Shown: piece after piece, positions 31,461 to 37,854 of the stretch
How the letters are laid out: every line of letters begins with the position of its first letter
How positions within the stretch are numbered: position 1 is the stretch's first letter
Assembly (NCBI GenBank): GCA_028066245.1
Contig: JALCBR010000036.1
Coordinates: forward strand, 1 to 41,463
Length of the DNA stretch: 41,463 nt
Reading direction: 5' to 3'
Source of the DNA: Pirellulales bacterium
GTDB taxonomy: Bacteria > Planctomycetota > Planctomycetia > Pirellulales > S012-138
The notes under the pieces: model-generated
The model's input: the letters and a program-made list of their open reading frames with translations, nothing else
What the model was told of the DNA's origin: nothing
The model's database searches: none
Made by a program: the position numbers and the translations under genes

Positions 31461-32491
31461 CGAACACCATAGGGCCGCAATTGCTAGACTACCGGGCGTG
31501 TCGAGGACAGCGTAACCCACTTTACTTCATCGCGGGGGATATCGTGACTGTCCAGCCATCCGAGCCTACGTTTAGCTGCACCGCTTCGATATCGCCGGAA
31601 GGTTTAGACTTAAACCGACACCAGTTCACAGAAGCAGTTCCATTGTCGAACTACACCCATGCAATTGGGAAGCCGTCTTGGACGCGGGATGGTGATGAAA
31701 AACTCCAGCACCCCACGGCAACCGAAACAACCAAATTCATGTGTTCGACGAGTTTGGGATATGTCTGTAGAGCATCATGCAACTACGCTTATTGACGCAG
31801 TTGTCTTTGTGTTAGACACATCAGAATATCACTGCCCAACTCGCATTCCGTTTTCTGGAAAGCTCTCCGTCGACGGCGTGTCATTCTACGCGGGAATGCA
31901 CGAATCCGATTTTCCTGAGGAAGTAGCATCAGATTCGAACGACACTTGCCAGGAAGGTACAGCATGCGTATGGGGCCGCATGACATCACTCTCACAAGCG
32001 TTGGCAAAAGCCTGGCGTCTGGCAGGAGAAGTCGCAAGAAACATTTCGTTGACTTGAGTTTTTGCTTCAAAACAAGTCGTAGGCAGTTTATTGAGAACTA
32101 CGCTGTCGTTGGACTGACAGCAGTTCCGCAGACTCCCCATTTTCCGGAATTCTATTAGCACGGGACAAATTCATGATCCGCGCAGTCGCCAATATGTGGG
32201 AAGTCCCAACATGCCACCAGACAACCTATCGTTGTCATTCATCGAAAAAAATCGTCTTACTTGCAGGTACTCTCAAGGTGGCAACCAACAAGTCAAGCAG
32301 CGCCCACGAAGGGATAATCCGTACATCCGCTACGACCTCTATATCCATCAAAGGGGTTGAAACAAACAGGCGGTTGGCGATGCATGCAGTATCGAGGCTT
32401 CCAGGAATCAGCCGAAGAAACTAAGGATACGCCGCGCGCCCGCCCCGCGTGCTACGTGGAGATATCACCCACTGTAAATTGGGAGAATTTC
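31461..32491. other. 1-kb gap after pfk
   Basis: No family-level gene is recognised between pfk and the secretin-like gene. It holds one weak candidate ORF (31761-32057). The upstream part of the secretin-like frame (32357-32491) is open but not protein-like. Base composition seems a little more A/T-rich here than in neighbouring genes, judged by eye. Confidence 0.4.
31761..32057 (+). CDS. possible small ORF, function unknown
   Basis: A 98-residue frame starting MSVEHHATTLIDAVVFVLD with a balanced amino acid composition and mixed codon use that looks more like coding than the other frames around it. Only GGGAT lies before the ATG, and no family is recognised. The frame is open back to 31659. 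It sits alone in a 1-kb gap. It may be a lineage-specific gene or chance. Confidence 0.25.
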   Translation: MSVEHHATTLIDAVVFVLDTSEYHCPTRIPFSGKLSVDGVSFYAGMHESDFPEEVASDSNDTCQEGTACVWGRMTSLSQALAKAWRLAGEVARNISLT

Positions 32492-33865
32492 GTGACGCAT
32501 GACAGATTTAGCCCAGCCGCGCGTTGTATGCAATTCCTTAGCAAAAGATGTCTTACCGCGGGCGTGCTTGCGACAACTTTCACGTTTTGCAGCTCACAGA
32601 CTGCCCTGGGGCAAGACTCGGTAGAGCCATCGTTTCGCGTAGCGACTTTGAATGTGCCAGCCATCGCGCCGGCTCCGTCGGTTGAGGGCTCGGAGGTCCA
32701 AACTCAAGATCCCGAAGCGGCCGCGCGGATGAAAGCCGCTTTGGCGCACGAAATTAACGCCGAGTTTTTCAATACGCCCTTGGGTGATGTGCTGAATGAC
32801 CTCTCAACCCAAAGTAAGATCCCCATCATCTTGGATCAGGCCGCGACGAATCGCCTGAAGTATCGTATTCACTCTCAACTGACAGTAACGGTCTTTGAAG
32901 CGCCGGTCATTTTCAAAGCTCAGTCTTTGCCGCTGGCGAATGTACTCGACTTGATTCTGCCCGGTTTGGGTTTGACATGGGGCACAAAGACCAATGAAAC
33001 GATCAGCGTGACAACGCCTGAGGTCGCGGACAATTGGGTCGAAGGACGACTCTATCCGGTTGAGCAAATTTTGGCCAAGAATGCGGAAAGCGTCACCGAT
33101 TCGCGCATTGGCGCGCGCGTCATCGCAAACTTTCTGACCTCGTTTGTCGCGCCCGAGTCCTGGCAGATCAACGGAGGAACAGGGGAAATTGTCCCGCTGG
33201 ACGGGGCCTTGCTCGTTCGAGCAACACGGTCCGTCCACGAGGAGGCTCGGCAGTTCCTGAATACGTGGAGCCAACCGCAGTTGCGCCAGCCTCGGCCAAC
33301 TGCCGCAGAACAGGAAATCCGTCGCGTGCTTGCGGAAGACATCGTCTTTGATGCACCAGAGCAAGCACTGTTCGAGGTGTTGCCGGATATGGCCGACCAA
33401 ACTTTGATTCCCATTGTGCTCGATTTCTACGCCCTGCTGGAGGAACGCATTCCTTATGACCGCCCAGTTGGTTTCAATGTTTCCGGTGCGTCACTTGCCG
33501 CCGTGCTTGACTTGATGCTTGATCCGCAAGGGCTTACTGCAATTGTTCACAAGGACACGTTGCTCATCACCACCAAGACTCGCGCAGCAAGGCTGATGTC
33601 TACTCGCATGTACGACGTGCGCGAGTTACTGGTTCCCAGGGATGCGGAGTCCACCGCGCCGATTGATCGCCGTACGCTCACGACCATCATCGATACGACC
33701 GTACAACCGGAAAGTTGGTTTGCCACTGGCGGAGAAGCTCGCAAGGAATTTTACGTGAGCGATAATGCCACGGAGGTTCTGCTTTTCGTGCGACAAACGG
33801 ATGCAGGGCATCGAGATCTGCACGAAAGATTGCAGCAACTCAAGCGGTGGGCGAGAACTGAATAA
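32492..33865 (+). CDS. exported secretin-like protein with doubled STN/PESW domain
   Basis: A 457-residue exported protein with a signal peptide (hydrophobic core about 22-36, cleavage near ALGQD). It is built of two similar halves. Each has an STN-like segment (FFNTPLGDVLNDLSTQSKIP in the first; LPDMADQTLIPIVLDFYALL in the second), a YPVEQIL/YDVRELL strand, and then a PESW motif with two Gly (VAPESWQINGG; VQPESWFATGG) and a final helix. STN segments are found at the N-terminus of secretins and TonB receptors, but no secretin pore domain is present. GTG 32492 has GGAG 7 nt upstream; ATG 32528 is an alternative. The gene ends 13 nt from the convergent oxidoreductase gene. Function unknown, probably periplasmic. 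Confidence 0.75.
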   Translation: MTHDRFSPAARCMQFLSKRCLTAGVLATTFTFCSSQTALGQDSVEPSFRVATLNVPAIAPAPSVEGSEVQTQDPEAAARMKAALAHEINAEFFNTPLGDVLNDLSTQSKIPIILDQAATNRLKYRIHSQLTVTVFEAPVIFKAQSLPLANVLDLILPGLGLTWGTKTNETISVTTPEVADNWVEGRLYPVEQILAKNAESVTDSRIGARVIANFLTSFVAPESWQINGGTGEIVPLDGALLVRATRSVHEEARQFLNTWSQPQLRQPRPTAAEQEIRRVLAEDIVFDAPEQALFEVLPDMADQTLIPIVLDFYALLEERIPYDRPVGFNVSGASLAAVLDLMLDPQGLTAIVHKDTLLITTKTRAARLMSTRMYDVRELLVPRDAESTAPIDRRTLTTIIDTTVQPESWFATGGEARKEFYVSDNATEVLLFVRQTDAGHRDLHERLQQLKRWARTE

Positions 33866-33878
33866 CAACGGTTTTTGT

Positions 33879-34955
33879 CTAGCTTGCTTCGCGATGTTCC
33901 GCCGGCGTCGCCACACGATCCCAGTGCGGCCCGCGCAAGATTGCCGGTGCAGGAGCGGGTTCGTCAGTCCAGTGGTGTTGGGCGATGCTGGACAGGACCA
34001 TTTCGGCAACTTCAATCGCCCTGCACGCCTCGGCTCCGCCACACCGCGGAGGCTCGCTCGACTGGATGCAAGCAGCAAATTCGCTGAGTTCTTCAGTCAA
34101 CTGGTCCACGGGTGGTGGGGTAACGGATTCCTCAGTCAGAACCCTAGCCACGGCCTCGGCTTGGCTTGCTGGCAGGACGTCATCAAGAGTGAATTGTCCC
34201 GAAGCTATCAGTTCCGAGGGACGAATGACCGTGGCACAACGGCCCGCAAAGTCCAATCTGGCGAAGCCGGACTTTGAGAAGACTTGCATTCGTCGCGTTG
34301 GCTGTGGACTGATGCGAGACGCAGAGACGTTAGCCACACATCCGTCCGCGAACGTTAGCCGCGCATTGGCAAGGTCCTCGTGTCCTCCCAACACCGCAAC
34401 ACCCACGGCATCAACTTGTTCCACGGGCGAGGCATTCATTGACAGGATGAGATCCAGATCATGGATCATCAAGTCCAACACAACGCCCACATCCTGCGAC
34501 CGACCAGTGAATCCACCACAGCGAACCGCATCAATGAACTTTGGGTGCTCCGTGATAGATTGAGCCGCTTGCAAAGCGGGATTGAATCGCTCGACGTGGC
34601 CCACTTGCAACACAACATGGGCATCCTTAGCGGCGGCGTGTAGATCGCGCGCTTCATTTGCGGTGGGCGCCAGCGGCTTCTCAATCAGCACATGCTTGCC
34701 TGCGGAAATCAGTTCCTTTCCCAGAGCATGGTGCAAAAACGTTGGCGCGGCGATGACCGCGGCATCAATATTGGGTATCAGCTCGCGGTGATCAGCAAAC
34801 GCCGCGGTACGCAGGTTGTCCGTGACCTGGCTGCGAGCTTCCGCGGACGGATCGGCGACTCCCATCAGTCGCACGCCAGCTAGCTTGGAGAGAATTCTCG
34901 CGTGGATACGCCCCAAATGACCGGCCCCAATCACACCAACTCGCAAACGTCTCAC
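33879..34955 (-). CDS. Gfo/Idh/MocA oxidoreductase coupled to lpxA
   Basis: A 358-residue NAD(P)-dependent oxidoreductase: N-terminal Rossmann fold with VGVIGAGHLGRIHAR (6-20), the family motif EKPLAPT (92-98), and a C-terminal substrate-binding domain. The start GTG 34953-34955 overlaps the lpxA stop as GTGA, with AAGGAG just upstream inside lpxA, so the two are translationally coupled. In Acidithiobacillus and Leptospira a member of this family, GnnA, next to lpxA oxidises UDP-GlcNAc as the first step to a 3-amino lipid A sugar; its partner aminotransferase GnnB is not in this window. GnnA-like function here is inference from context. It is the last gene of the skp-lpxC-lpxA operon. Confidence 0.92.
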   Translation of the reverse strand: MRRLRVGVIGAGHLGRIHARILSKLAGVRLMGVADPSAEARSQVTDNLRTAAFADHRELIPNIDAAVIAAPTFLHHALGKELISAGKHVLIEKPLAPTANEARDLHAAAKDAHVVLQVGHVERFNPALQAAQSITEHPKFIDAVRCGGFTGRSQDVGVVLDLMIHDLDLILSMNASPVEQVDAVGVAVLGGHEDLANARLTFADGCVANVSASRISPQPTRRMQVFSKSGFARLDFAGRCATVIRPSELIASGQFTLDDVLPASQAEAVARVLTEESVTPPPVDQLTEELSEFAACIQSSEPPRCGGAEACRAIEVAEMVLSSIAQHHWTDEPAPAPAILRGPHWDRVATPAEHREAS

Positions 34956-35758
34956 GCGGCTCTCCTTCGTTCGCGTGCCCGGCCATGGCGGCCATCTTGT
35001 TGTGTTTGAATGAAACTCAACAGGTGGCTCACGTGCGAAACCAATTTGTCGTTTCCCCGCAGTATCTCTCGGGCATGATCCAATCCGACTTTCGCTCGGT
35101 AGATTAGCCGATGAGCTTCTGCCAGGGCGGCGATCGATCCTTGCGAGAATCCGTTTCGCTTCAAGGCAACCACGTTGATACACCGAGGTCGGCAGGGAAA
35201 ACCCTCAGCCAACATATAGGGCGGAACGTCATGGAGAACTCGGCTCAATCCGCTGACGAAGGAATACGCGCCAATTGTGGCGAAATGATGTACGGCCACA
35301 GCGCCCGAAAGCGTGGCGCAATCATCCACGTGGACATGCCCGCCGAGCATTGTGCCGTTTGCGATAACGATCCCGCTCCCCAGATGGCAATCGTGCGCGA
35401 CGTGCGAGCATGCCATGAAGTAGCACCGGTTACCGATCGTGGTGATTCCCGTGTCTTTGGCGGTTCCCCGATTGACAGTGACCGACTCGCGAAAAACGTT
35501 GTTGTCTCCAACCACAACTTCCGTTGGTTCGCCCCGATAACTGATGTCTTGAGGTTCTCCGCCAATGACGACTCCAGGGTAGAGGTGGTTTTCGCGACCA
35601 ATGGTTACCTTGCCCATGATGGTAACGTTGTTTGCCAATCGCGTTCCCTGGCCGATTCTCGCCTGCGGTCCGACGACGCAAAAAGGGCCGATCTCAACAT
35701 CGGCGGCGATCTCAGCGCTGGAGTCGATGCTCGCGTGGGGTGAGATGTGTTGGGTCAT
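34952..35758 (-). CDS. lpxA: UDP-GlcNAc (or UDP-GlcNAc3N) acyltransferase LpxA
   Basis: First step of lipid A synthesis: transfers a hydroxyacyl chain from acyl carrier protein to the UDP-sugar. The 268-residue protein is a left-handed beta-helix of hexapeptide repeats (VTIMGKVTIG and similar), with catalytic H122 in the HVAHDCHLG stretch and the conserved DVPPYMLAEGFP region. A helical C-terminal domain follows. The length equals that of E. coli LpxA plus a few residues. ATG 35758 has GGAG 9 nt upstream; the frame is open for 71 more codons upstream, which do not match the family. It follows lpxC by 151 nt and overlaps the oxidoreductase start. Confidence 0.95.
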   Translation of the reverse strand: MTQHISPHASIDSSAEIAADVEIGPFCVVGPQARIGQGTRLANNVTIMGKVTIGRENHLYPGVVIGGEPQDISYRGEPTEVVVGDNNVFRESVTVNRGTAKDTGITTIGNRCYFMACSHVAHDCHLGSGIVIANGTMLGGHVHVDDCATLSGAVAVHHFATIGAYSFVSGLSRVLHDVPPYMLAEGFPCRPRCINVVALKRNGFSQGSIAALAEAHRLIYRAKVGLDHAREILRGNDKLVSHVSHLLSFIQTQQDGRHGRARERRRAA

Positions 35759-35909: not shown

Positions 35910-36788
35910 TCATGCCGTACGTTTCCAGTCGCCGCAAATGACTTCACCTTCAGCGAGCAAGGCACGAACAAGCTCGGCGTTCAACCGATGTCCGCTGCGA
36001 TGCGCTGTGAACGCTCCCACCAGGTCACAGCCGGCCAGCGCCAGGTCACCGACAAAATCCAGCACCTTGTGTCGGACGCATTCATCGGGGAAACGCAGTT
36101 GGTTACCGAGGGGGCCCAGCGGTCCATAAATCAACAGATCACTCTGGCTTGTACGAGCACCCAAGCCTTGAGACCGTAGCCAGTCAGCTTCGTGTTCAAG
36201 AAGGAATGTCCGGCAGGGTGCGATCTCCCGACGAAACGCATCTGGCGTAATCCGCATCGCCAACGTCTGCCTGCCGATTGCGTTATCGCGCCCGTAGTCC
36301 AGGCGATACTTAACTTCAAAACCTGCTGAGCGGTTTGGGCGAACTTCAATCCACTGATTGTCGTCGCCAACCCGAGTTTGCTCCGACACAATCATATGAG
36401 GCTGAATCGCCGGCTGTTCCTCCACGCCAACGACCGTGAGCGCTTCCACAAACGGAAGACTGGACCCATCGCAACCGGGCATCTCGGCCGCATCAACCCA
36501 CACTTCGCAATTGTCGATCTGCAAGCCAGCCAGCGACGCCATGACATGCTCGATCATCTCGACACTTGCGCCGCCATGCCGCAACGTCGTGCGTCGTGGA
36601 CTCTCGACTCGATGTTCCAGTCGCGCTGGAATTCGCACGGCCGGTTGCAGGTCACCGCGAACGAACACAATTCCCGTTCGAGGTTCCGCCGGTCGAAACT
36701 CAAGGCGAATGTCCTGGCTGCTCCAATAACCAAACCCCTCGACTGTCGTGGGGGCTGCGATCGTTCGCTGTTGACGAGCCTCGTGCAT
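35910..36788 (-). CDS. lpxC: UDP-3-O-acyl-GlcNAc deacetylase LpxC
   Basis: Second, committed step of lipid A synthesis; a zinc deacetylase. The 292-residue protein has the zinc ligands H81 (EHVMASL), H240 and D244 (RHKVLDFVGDLAL), the catalytic acid/base H267 (HRSGHRLN), and the PGCDGSSLPFV loop. These are numbered two above the E. coli residues. The protein is LpxC alone, not fused to FabZ as in Bacteroidota. ATG 36788 was chosen by alignment; an upstream TTG at 36821 is possible and neither has a good ribosome binding site. It lies between skp and lpxA in the same direction. Confidence 0.95.
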   Translation of the reverse strand: MHEARQQRTIAAPTTVEGFGYWSSQDIRLEFRPAEPRTGIVFVRGDLQPAVRIPARLEHRVESPRRTTLRHGGASVEMIEHVMASLAGLQIDNCEVWVDAAEMPGCDGSSLPFVEALTVVGVEEQPAIQPHMIVSEQTRVGDDNQWIEVRPNRSAGFEVKYRLDYGRDNAIGRQTLAMRITPDAFRREIAPCRTFLLEHEADWLRSQGLGARTSQSDLLIYGPLGPLGNQLRFPDECVRHKVLDFVGDLALAGCDLVGAFTAHRSGHRLNAELVRALLAEGEVICGDWKRTA

Positions 36789-36939
36789 TAACGCGTGTGA
36801 GCAGAAGGGGCTGGGGTTCAAGTTGTCCGACAGGTTGCAGTCTCTGAACGTGGCAAATCAGCGACGAGTAGCTCAGTCAGGCAGTCCGTCTCTTACGAAC
36901 ACCTCTGGCTTGTTGAGCCGTGACGCCGATCGGCAAAGA

Positions 36940-37557
36940 TCACTGGCGGTTCACGCGAGGACCTTGCAAACCACCACCGACTTGCGGCTGATAGCGCCGG
37001 TTGAGCTGATCAAGAATCACCGGTGTGATGTCAATATTGCGGTCATAGAACAGCACAGCACGATTGAGGAACTTTTGCACTTCGGCTGGATCGGGATTCT
37101 CGCCAACGGTTTCCCCATTGAAGCGAAAGACCATCATCAAGCGGCGGCTGGCTGCGTAGGCGTTGACCTCGCCGATGATCTCCATGTAGGTGGTGTAGTA
37201 CAGCTTCGTCTCTTTACGCTCGAAGTCCCGCCGCATGATCTGCTTGTCGGCTTCAATGTCCGCCAGTTCCTTGGTGAGCTTTTCGTTCGCGGCATCCCAT
37301 TCCGGCGTGTTGCGGCGGTAGAGTTCGTCGCGCTGCTTCGCCTGGTTCTGGATGTCTTCCTGCCGGCGCTGGATCATCTGGCTGGCACCTTCAACCTCGC
37401 CTTTGAGCAAGTCCGTTGCGGCCTTGAATTTGGGATAGTTGTCGAAAATGTAGTTCAAATCGACGATAGCAATGCCGCCTTGGGCATGGGCTGATTGAGC
37501 GCCCGTTGTCATAACGGCTGCGAAGACAAGAGTCGCTAAGAAACCGAACTTCTTCAC
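36940..37557 (-). CDS. skp: OmpH/Skp periplasmic chaperone
   Basis: Periplasmic chaperone that holds unfolded outer-membrane proteins. The 205-residue protein has a signal peptide (KKFGFLATLVFAAVMTTG, cleavage near AHAQ), the short strand IAIVDLNYIF, then a long charged coiled coil (about 45-120) with Gln/Arg/Glu-rich heptads, and a C-terminal strand region DITPVILDQLN as in the OmpH family. Start GTG 37557 has AAGGAG 8 nt upstream. It leads the lipid A genes lpxC and lpxA, an arrangement known from many Gram-negative bacteria, though bamA, which often precedes skp, is absent here. Confidence 0.87.
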   Translation of the reverse strand: MKKFGFLATLVFAAVMTTGAQSAHAQGGIAIVDLNYIFDNYPKFKAATDLLKGEVEGASQMIQRRQEDIQNQAKQRDELYRRNTPEWDAANEKLTKELADIEADKQIMRRDFERKETKLYYTTYMEIIGEVNAYAASRRLMMVFRFNGETVGENPDPAEVQKFLNRAVLFYDRNIDITPVILDQLNRRYQPQVGGGLQGPRVNRQ

Positions 37558-37854
37558 GATGTGCACTCCTTGATAGGACGGCGGGTCGTTCCATGACCTG
37601 ACGTGGCTGCCCGTGCCACGCCCATAAGGTTTGCGATTCAAGCAAGGAATCGGGCGTTCAAAATGCGGGCGGTATTCTGCCGACATCGCTGCGGGGGGTA
37701 AAGAGCAAGTTCACCCGTTCATCGAGATGCGAACAGTAGCAGCGATAGCACGTCCGCTTGCCACCTGGAAGCACACAATGTGGACGAGCGATCCATCCGT
37801 GGCAAACAAGGGCAGCTCTGAAGTAGTCACACACTGTGACTGCAACCGCAGCGG

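Follow-up and report, generated by a model that had tools for sequence, protein, structure and literature searches.

The question raised by this locus is whether a Gfo/Idh/MocA oxidoreductase, whose gene overlaps that of the acyltransferase LpxA, helps to make an amide-linked lipid A in a planctomycete. The window, which is the whole 41,463-nucleotide stretch of Pirellulales DNA analyzed here, carries on its minus strand the gene run OmpH-LpxC-LpxA-oxidoreductase. The head of the cluster (36940..37686, minus strand) encodes an OmpH/Skp-like protein and is followed by lpxC (35910..36821, minus strand); both were named by reading, and relatives of lpxC in the same order precede lpxA or the oxidoreductase gene. 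Next come LpxA1 (P0002; 34952..35758, minus strand), an acyl-ACP--UDP-GlcNAc acyltransferase of 268 a.a. identified with the NCBIfam LpxA models, and a GnnA-like Gfo/Idh/MocA oxidoreductase of 358 a.a. with a GTG start (33879..34955, minus strand), identified from its sequence, from Pfam and NCBIfam, and from a structural model with fold and structure comparison. The LpxA1 reading frame runs from the ATG at 35758 to the TGA at 34954-34952, and that of the oxidoreductase from the GTG at 34955-34953 to the stop codon at 33881-33879. The four bases common to both genes, GTGA (34952..34955, minus strand, read from the sequence), comprise the final base of the last sense codon of LpxA and its TGA stop. 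An AAGGAG motif (34962..34967, minus strand, also read from the sequence), which runs from 34967 to 34962 and lies six bases upstream of the GTG, is probably the ribosome-binding site for the oxidoreductase. Convergent with this gene, the plus strand encodes a secreted-looking protein of 502 a.a. (32357-33865), the two halves of which appear similar by eye.

The initial annotation had proposed that the GTGA overlap links the Gfo/Idh/MocA protein to LpxA, and this proposal is borne out by the four shared bases and by the junctions of related genomes. A 4-base overlap is present in 20 of 30 lpxA-oxidoreductase junctions of the order (L211-L240, the window's own among them, drawn from 30 of 40 order genomes searched), and a gap of 56-294 bases in the other 10. 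The script that assigned starts preferred any in-frame start that produced a 4-base overlap, and some of these starts are TTG. Because it is kept in 20 of 30 junctions, the overlap is not a product of chance, and its best explanation is that the oxidoreductase is made in step with LpxA. Among the order loci fetched around the oxidoreductase, lpxA adjoins it in 25 of 28 and lpxC alone in the remaining three; in the wider phylum sample, of which the 29 best-scoring loci were fetched, the oxidoreductase lies beside lpxA in 23, beside lpxC alone in three, and beside neither in three. The oxidoreductase itself was found in 39 of 40 order genomes, the single genome without it being 83% complete, and in 117 of 149 genomes of the phylum (E ≤ 1e-30). 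In one genome of the same phylum (L043, genome G057), two tandem lpxA genes lie directly upstream of a GnnA-like oxidoreductase gene.

Against the Pfam model GFO_IDH_MocA the oxidoreductase scores 95.5 bits (cut-off 24), and its best NCBIfam model is that of the archaeal UDP-GlcNAc 3-dehydrogenase (NF040723), at 197.8 bits and below the cut-off of 450. Twelve Gfo/Idh matches, the oxidoreductase included, were found in its own genome, and the others resemble it at 27-34% over parts of the sequence, with at most 51.7 bits. In a phmmer search of solved structures, 7bvj and 7bvk lead at 2e-50 and the runner-up stands at 3.6e-16. The PDB title of 7bvj is UDP-N-acetylglucosamine 3-dehydrogenase GnnA of Acidithiobacillus ferrooxidans, and a study of the biochemistry and structure of this enzyme is cited in PMC8549069. 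A structural model of the oxidoreductase, predicted from a 57-row alignment (A3) with a pLDDT of 93.9 (46.3 from the single sequence), retrieved GnnA in Foldseek at 1.8e-35, the next other enzyme being at 1.4e-24. Likewise, VIA-align 2 superimposed the model on GnnA with a Z-score of 40.7 and an rmsd of 1.5 Å over 300 residues at 36% identity, and the first protein other than GnnA scored 36.2. Residues Lys93, Arg145, Arg152, Asp161, His165, and Asp166 are invariant across all 57 rows of A3, with EKP at 92-94. A further set (Thr72, Asp161, Met163, Arg214, and Arg221) is kept by 57 or 58 of the 58 family rows, among them 7bvj; none of the five occurs in two WbpB-like enzymes, and three paralogues from the window's own genome each lack three or four of them. 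Since GnnA is the closest solved relative in both sequence and fold, and the family-specific residues are kept, the best inference is that the oxidoreductase is predicted to oxidize carbon 3 of UDP-GlcNAc. The window protein shares with A. ferrooxidans GnnA (7bvj, 7bvk) the fold, the EKP and DLMIHDLD motifs, and the family-specific residues. Unlike GnnA, it falls in a sister clade, has no gnnB alongside, and carries a low-confidence C-terminal tail past residue 330.

The spread of the family beyond the phylum was followed in a scan of named genomes (the best 80 loci, with flanks of up to 5 kb), in which a DegT aminotransferase lies within the fetched stretch in 23 loci and lpxI in 17. A quick tree of 96 rows places 7bvj in a clade of 30 rows (SH-aLRT 99) together with 22 of the 23 homologues that have a linked aminotransferase; at one of the 23 linked loci (L093), the aminotransferase is about 4 kb from the oxidoreductase and falls with WbpE. 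The window oxidoreductase lies outside the 7bvj clade, in a 13-row clade of its own phylum (99) that groups weakly (82) with homologues from Verrucomicrobiota, Omnitrophota, and Nitrospirota. Many of these homologues have a linked lpxI, and none has an aminotransferase within its fetched stretch. In one early-branching Nitrospirota homologue (L148), a linked aminotransferase adjoins the oxidoreductase. The outgroup consisted of two WbpB-like rows, and three Gfo paralogues from the window's own genome were left out; because the root depends on these two very long rows, the deep branches are unsure. For this reason, and because the protein branches outside the 7bvj clade, the name GnnA-like is preferred here over GnnA. 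Thus, of the suggestion that the protein is a GnnA, the kinship stands, no other solved protein being as close in sequence or fold, but the protein scores below the NCBIfam cut-off and lies in a sister clade, apart from 22 of the 23 aminotransferase-linked homologues. The order lpxA-lpxI-oxidoreductase recurs in several phyla (L083, L106, L107, L120, L125, L127, L130, L131, L140, L141, L144, and L153), with no aminotransferase in any of these fetched stretches. Bdellovibrio lipid A contains GlcN3N. In a locus of the Bdellovibrionaceae (L077), lpxA adjoins the oxidoreductase, and an aminotransferase is absent from the fetched stretch.

A GnnA-type route would require a GnnB-like aminotransferase, which the initial annotation had found missing here and expected elsewhere in the genome. 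Its absence from the window is confirmed, as the lists of open reading frames hold no DegT gene and a genome-wide DegT search gave no match in the window. That search returned three strong DegT matches, of which P0003 (contig C43; 397.7 bits against Pfam DegT/DnrJ/EryC1, cut-off 19.8) is the divergent neighbor of lpxD-lpxI, 725 bp from lpxD. These neighbors were identified by the Pfam models LpxI_N and LpxI_C and by the LpxD model, the latter at 31.8 bits against a cut-off of 30.8. The match on contig C59, for which ArnB is the best solved chain, PseC the best NCBIfam model (below cut-off), and the neighbor dehydratase-like by reading, was not preferred as GnnB, nor was that on contig C33, the neighbors of which are uninformative. 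A relative of P0003, 53-63% identical, is present in all 40 order genomes (E ≤ 1e-90) and is the sole match at this cut-off in 35. The lpxD neighborhood was not seen at 57 other phylum and order loci (1.5-kb flanks) or at 38 more (about 3-kb flanks). In family f44, an LptD-type gene adjoins the P0003 relative in all three loci fetched (Pfam LptD 48.7 bits in one, LptD_N 26.5 bits in another). Loci of this family at which an lptD-type gene stands next to the P0003 relative are L060, L066, L068, and L256. A weak LptD-like match (22% identity, 120 bits) also lies by the aminotransferase of L321, from a 79% complete genome (G102) without an oxidoreductase match. According to the gene lists of P0003 relatives (14, 8, and 12 loci, by reading), the neighbors are mostly unrelated, which suggests a stand-alone role without pointing to any specific one.

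P0003 is 41-47% identical to seven GnnBs that are linked to gnnA. It belongs to the same DegT family as the GnnBs whose genes accompany gnnA-like ones (L104, L126, and others) but, unlike them, it lies on a different contig from the oxidoreductase and in a clade of its own. In a careful tree of 57 hand-picked rows out of 129, the P0003 clade (100/99) is separate from the gnnA-linked GnnBs (99/89), and the grouping of clades I and II seen in the first aminotransferase tree (89) was not recovered. L274 was dropped from one aminotransferase tree as too short; L093, L274, L282, L285, and L286 were left out of another; and L266, which is placed beside the P0003 clade in one tree and elsewhere in another, was excluded from the counts. 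In topology tests, neither the union of the P0003 clade with the gnnA-linked GnnBs (p-AU 0.211) nor that with the WbpE clade (p-AU 0.522) was rejected. The WbpE/WbpB pair, which serves the synthesis of UDP-GlcNAc3NAcA, performs the same kind of carbon-3 chemistry as GnnA/GnnB, and the P0003 clade may be as near to WbpE as to GnnB. Unlike that system, however, the oxidoreductase is without the WbpB-like residues and the P0003 stretch is without a Wbp-type gene. A GnnB-like DegT protein is therefore found elsewhere in the genome, as had been expected, near lpxD-lpxI, but it lies outside the clade of gnnA-linked GnnBs and could equally be WbpE-like. P0003 is accordingly a plausible candidate GnnB. 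In Mesorhizobium loti, gnnA and gnnB are reported to be separable both from one another and from lpxA (PMC5644692).

Outside the order, the co-occurrence of the aminotransferase with the GnnA-like enzyme is loose and not strict. Of the best 80 loci, those with no adjacent aminotransferase were followed up in 29 genomes, and 28 of these gave an aminotransferase match at E ≤ 1e-60. Where the oxidoreductase lies outside the 7bvj clade (26 searched genomes, of which drafts may be incomplete), an unlinked aminotransferase of the P0003 clade is carried by 14, and 12 have none or an unsettled one; in four of the 14 (L261, L276, L277, and L278), Wbp-type genes are nearby. The best aminotransferase stands beside WbpA-, WbpB-, or WbpD-like genes in 11 of 18 oxidoreductase-less genomes (fetched of 32), vs. 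two of 20 oxidoreductase-positive genomes, which were the lower-scoring ones (Fisher p 0.0016, uncorrected for kinship, for hand-picked loci with the same flanks of about 3 kb). This contrast in Wbp-type neighbors fits a stand-alone partner in oxidoreductase-positive genomes. Speaking against the pairing, however, the aminotransferase falls in the P0003 clade (69 rows, 94) in only five of these 20 lower-scoring positives but in 12 of the 18 oxidoreductase-less genomes, and in seven of those 12 the P0003-clade aminotransferase lies by Wbp-type genes.

The genome also encodes two full-length LpxAs. LpxA1 scores 322.7 and 295.5 bits against NF003657 and TIGR01852 (NCBIfam cut-offs 226 and 231.05), and the second, LpxA2 (P0004; L241:2765-3628 on contig C113), scores 288 and 263.5 bits, above both cut-offs. 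No lpx gene was seen among the neighbors of LpxA2 read on contig C113. In an order-wide search (E ≤ 1e-30), 31 of 40 genomes gave at least two matches to LpxA, with only the second kind in six and only the first in three, as judged by score; at least two matches were found in 39 of 149 genomes of the phylum sample. At four loci (L016, L196, L197, and L210), LpxA1 is missing and the oxidoreductase still adjoins lpxC. LpxB (238.1 bits) was found in the window's genome, where LpxC, LpxD, and LpxI are also present.

The LpxA of Leptospira interrogans is selective for UDP-GlcNAc3N. In a careful LpxA tree, from which three long rows were left out, LpxA2 groups with this enzyme (3hsq) and with two LpxAs from Rhodocyclales encoded downstream of gnnA-gnnB (91/85); six second copies from other genomes were checked by their place in this tree. 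This kinship of LpxA2 with the Leptospira enzyme, as judged by sequence, is no more than suggestive. Of the residues of E. coli LpxA, LpxA1 retains Asp74 and His122, His125, His144, and His160 and differs at 99 and 161. Asp74 is common to LpxA1, E. coli, and L. interrogans, but by reading LpxA2 has a histidine at this position, which speaks against simply extending the selectivity of the Leptospira enzyme to LpxA2. Positions selected between 68 and 205 (E. coli LpxA numbering) as markers of substrate separated none of the groups compared (aminotransferase-linked, lpxI-linked, other, and phylum). Gln68 of Leptospira LpxA was ruled out as a special residue, as it aligns to the conserved Gln73.

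Taken together, the GnnA-like gene, the candidate aminotransferase, and the second LpxA in one genome make an amide- instead of an ester-linked lipid A possible. In the proposed route, the GnnA-like enzyme would use NAD+ to convert the 3-hydroxyl of UDP-GlcNAc into a 3-ketone, and P0003 would then add an amino group at carbon 3 to give UDP-GlcNAc3N. One of the two LpxAs would acylate N3 of this sugar, so that the primary acyl chains at position 3 would be amide-linked in part or all of the lipid A. The substrate and product, the pairing of the enzymes, the assignment of each LpxA to a sugar, and the lipid A structure are all inferred. The carbon-3 chemistry predicted for the oxidoreductase has good support. 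On balance, we lean towards the GnnA-like enzyme feeding an amide-linked lipid A together with P0003, and such a lipid A in the window's bacterium is plausible.

This reading has to be weighed against others. That the overlap is operon packing only, and the protein a housekeeping dehydrogenase of sugars with no part in LPS, is very improbable: gene overlaps are common in bacteria and Gfo/Idh proteins are numerous (as the 12 matches in this genome attest), but the association with lpxA or lpxC in the order and the phylum sample, the lpx linkage in other phyla, and the kinship to GnnA that is clear from Foldseek and VIA-align 2 all disfavor it. A more serious alternative is that the 3-keto product serves another sugar, either of the O-antigen or another UDP-diamino sugar, with P0003 a WbpE-like enzyme that has other partners and lipid A itself ordinary. 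Clade mates of P0003 do lie by WbpA-, WbpB-, or WbpD-like genes (e.g., L052, L058, L062, L276, L277, and L278), and the unrejected union with the WbpE clade is consistent with such a role. On the other hand, the contig stretch of P0003 holds lpxD-lpxI and no Wbp-type gene, lpxA or lpxC adjoins the oxidoreductase in all 28 order loci fetched, and both genes are near-universal in the order, which would be unexpected for a variable O-antigen cluster. We regard this alternative as unlikely.

Alternatively, lpx-linked oxidoreductases without a linked aminotransferase, which include those of the window's phylum, Verrucomicrobiota, Omnitrophota, Nitrospirota, and many deltaproteobacteria, may have another job in lipid A synthesis (e.g., a different oxidation or a UDP-sugar epimerization) for which no aminotransferase is needed. 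The distribution of the linked DegT genes, which accompany only 23 of the best 80 homologues and in all but one case a member of the 7bvj clade, would agree with this, as would the 12 of 26 genomes with an oxidoreductase outside that clade in which a P0003-clade aminotransferase is absent or unsettled. However, the family-specific residues agree with 7bvj throughout, the early-branching Nitrospirota homologue has an adjoining aminotransferase, and in the other 14 of the 26 genomes an aminotransferase of the P0003 clade is present but unlinked, with Wbp-type genes nearby in four. A job of this kind therefore seems rather improbable as well, and the route through P0003 to an amide-linked lipid A is preferred.

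A broader form of the preferred route can be offered tentatively, although we consider it doubtful: the split GnnA/GnnB-type route with two LpxAs would be old and core to the order, LpxA2 would take UDP-GlcNAc3N and LpxA1 UDP-GlcNAc, and the lipid A would be hybrid or fully amide-linked. The histidine of LpxA2 in place of Asp74 makes this form slightly less probable. The sister clades of the oxidoreductase and the aminotransferase (Nitrospirota, desulfobacteria, Gemmatimonadota, and others) would then imply that amide linkages in lipid A extend far beyond the examples known so far. Should the route be real, it would predict a specific lipid A chemistry for the whole order, with four genes named for testing, and would suggest an amide-linked lipid A spanning several phyla. 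A literature search, which mostly did not cover subscription papers, returned nothing for planctomycetes with diaminoglucose, and only a lake virus study for planctomycetes with GnnA. Nearly all lipid A genes are reported to be essential in Planctopirus limnophila (PMC10632474). A parallel is offered by Capnocytophaga canimorsus, which has a hybrid GlcN3N-GlcN lipid A backbone, two lpxA genes, gnnA, and gnnB, according to PMC3342949. It resembles the window's genome in having two LpxAs and an oxidoreductase and aminotransferase that lie apart. It differs in that both of its lpxA genes lie together with lpxC and lpxD, whereas the second lpxA of the window's genome stands alone, and in that its lipid A structure has been determined. 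Two LpxA genes within one gnnA-gnnB neighborhood were also observed in a metagenome-assembled genome of the Ectothiorhodospiraceae (L114).
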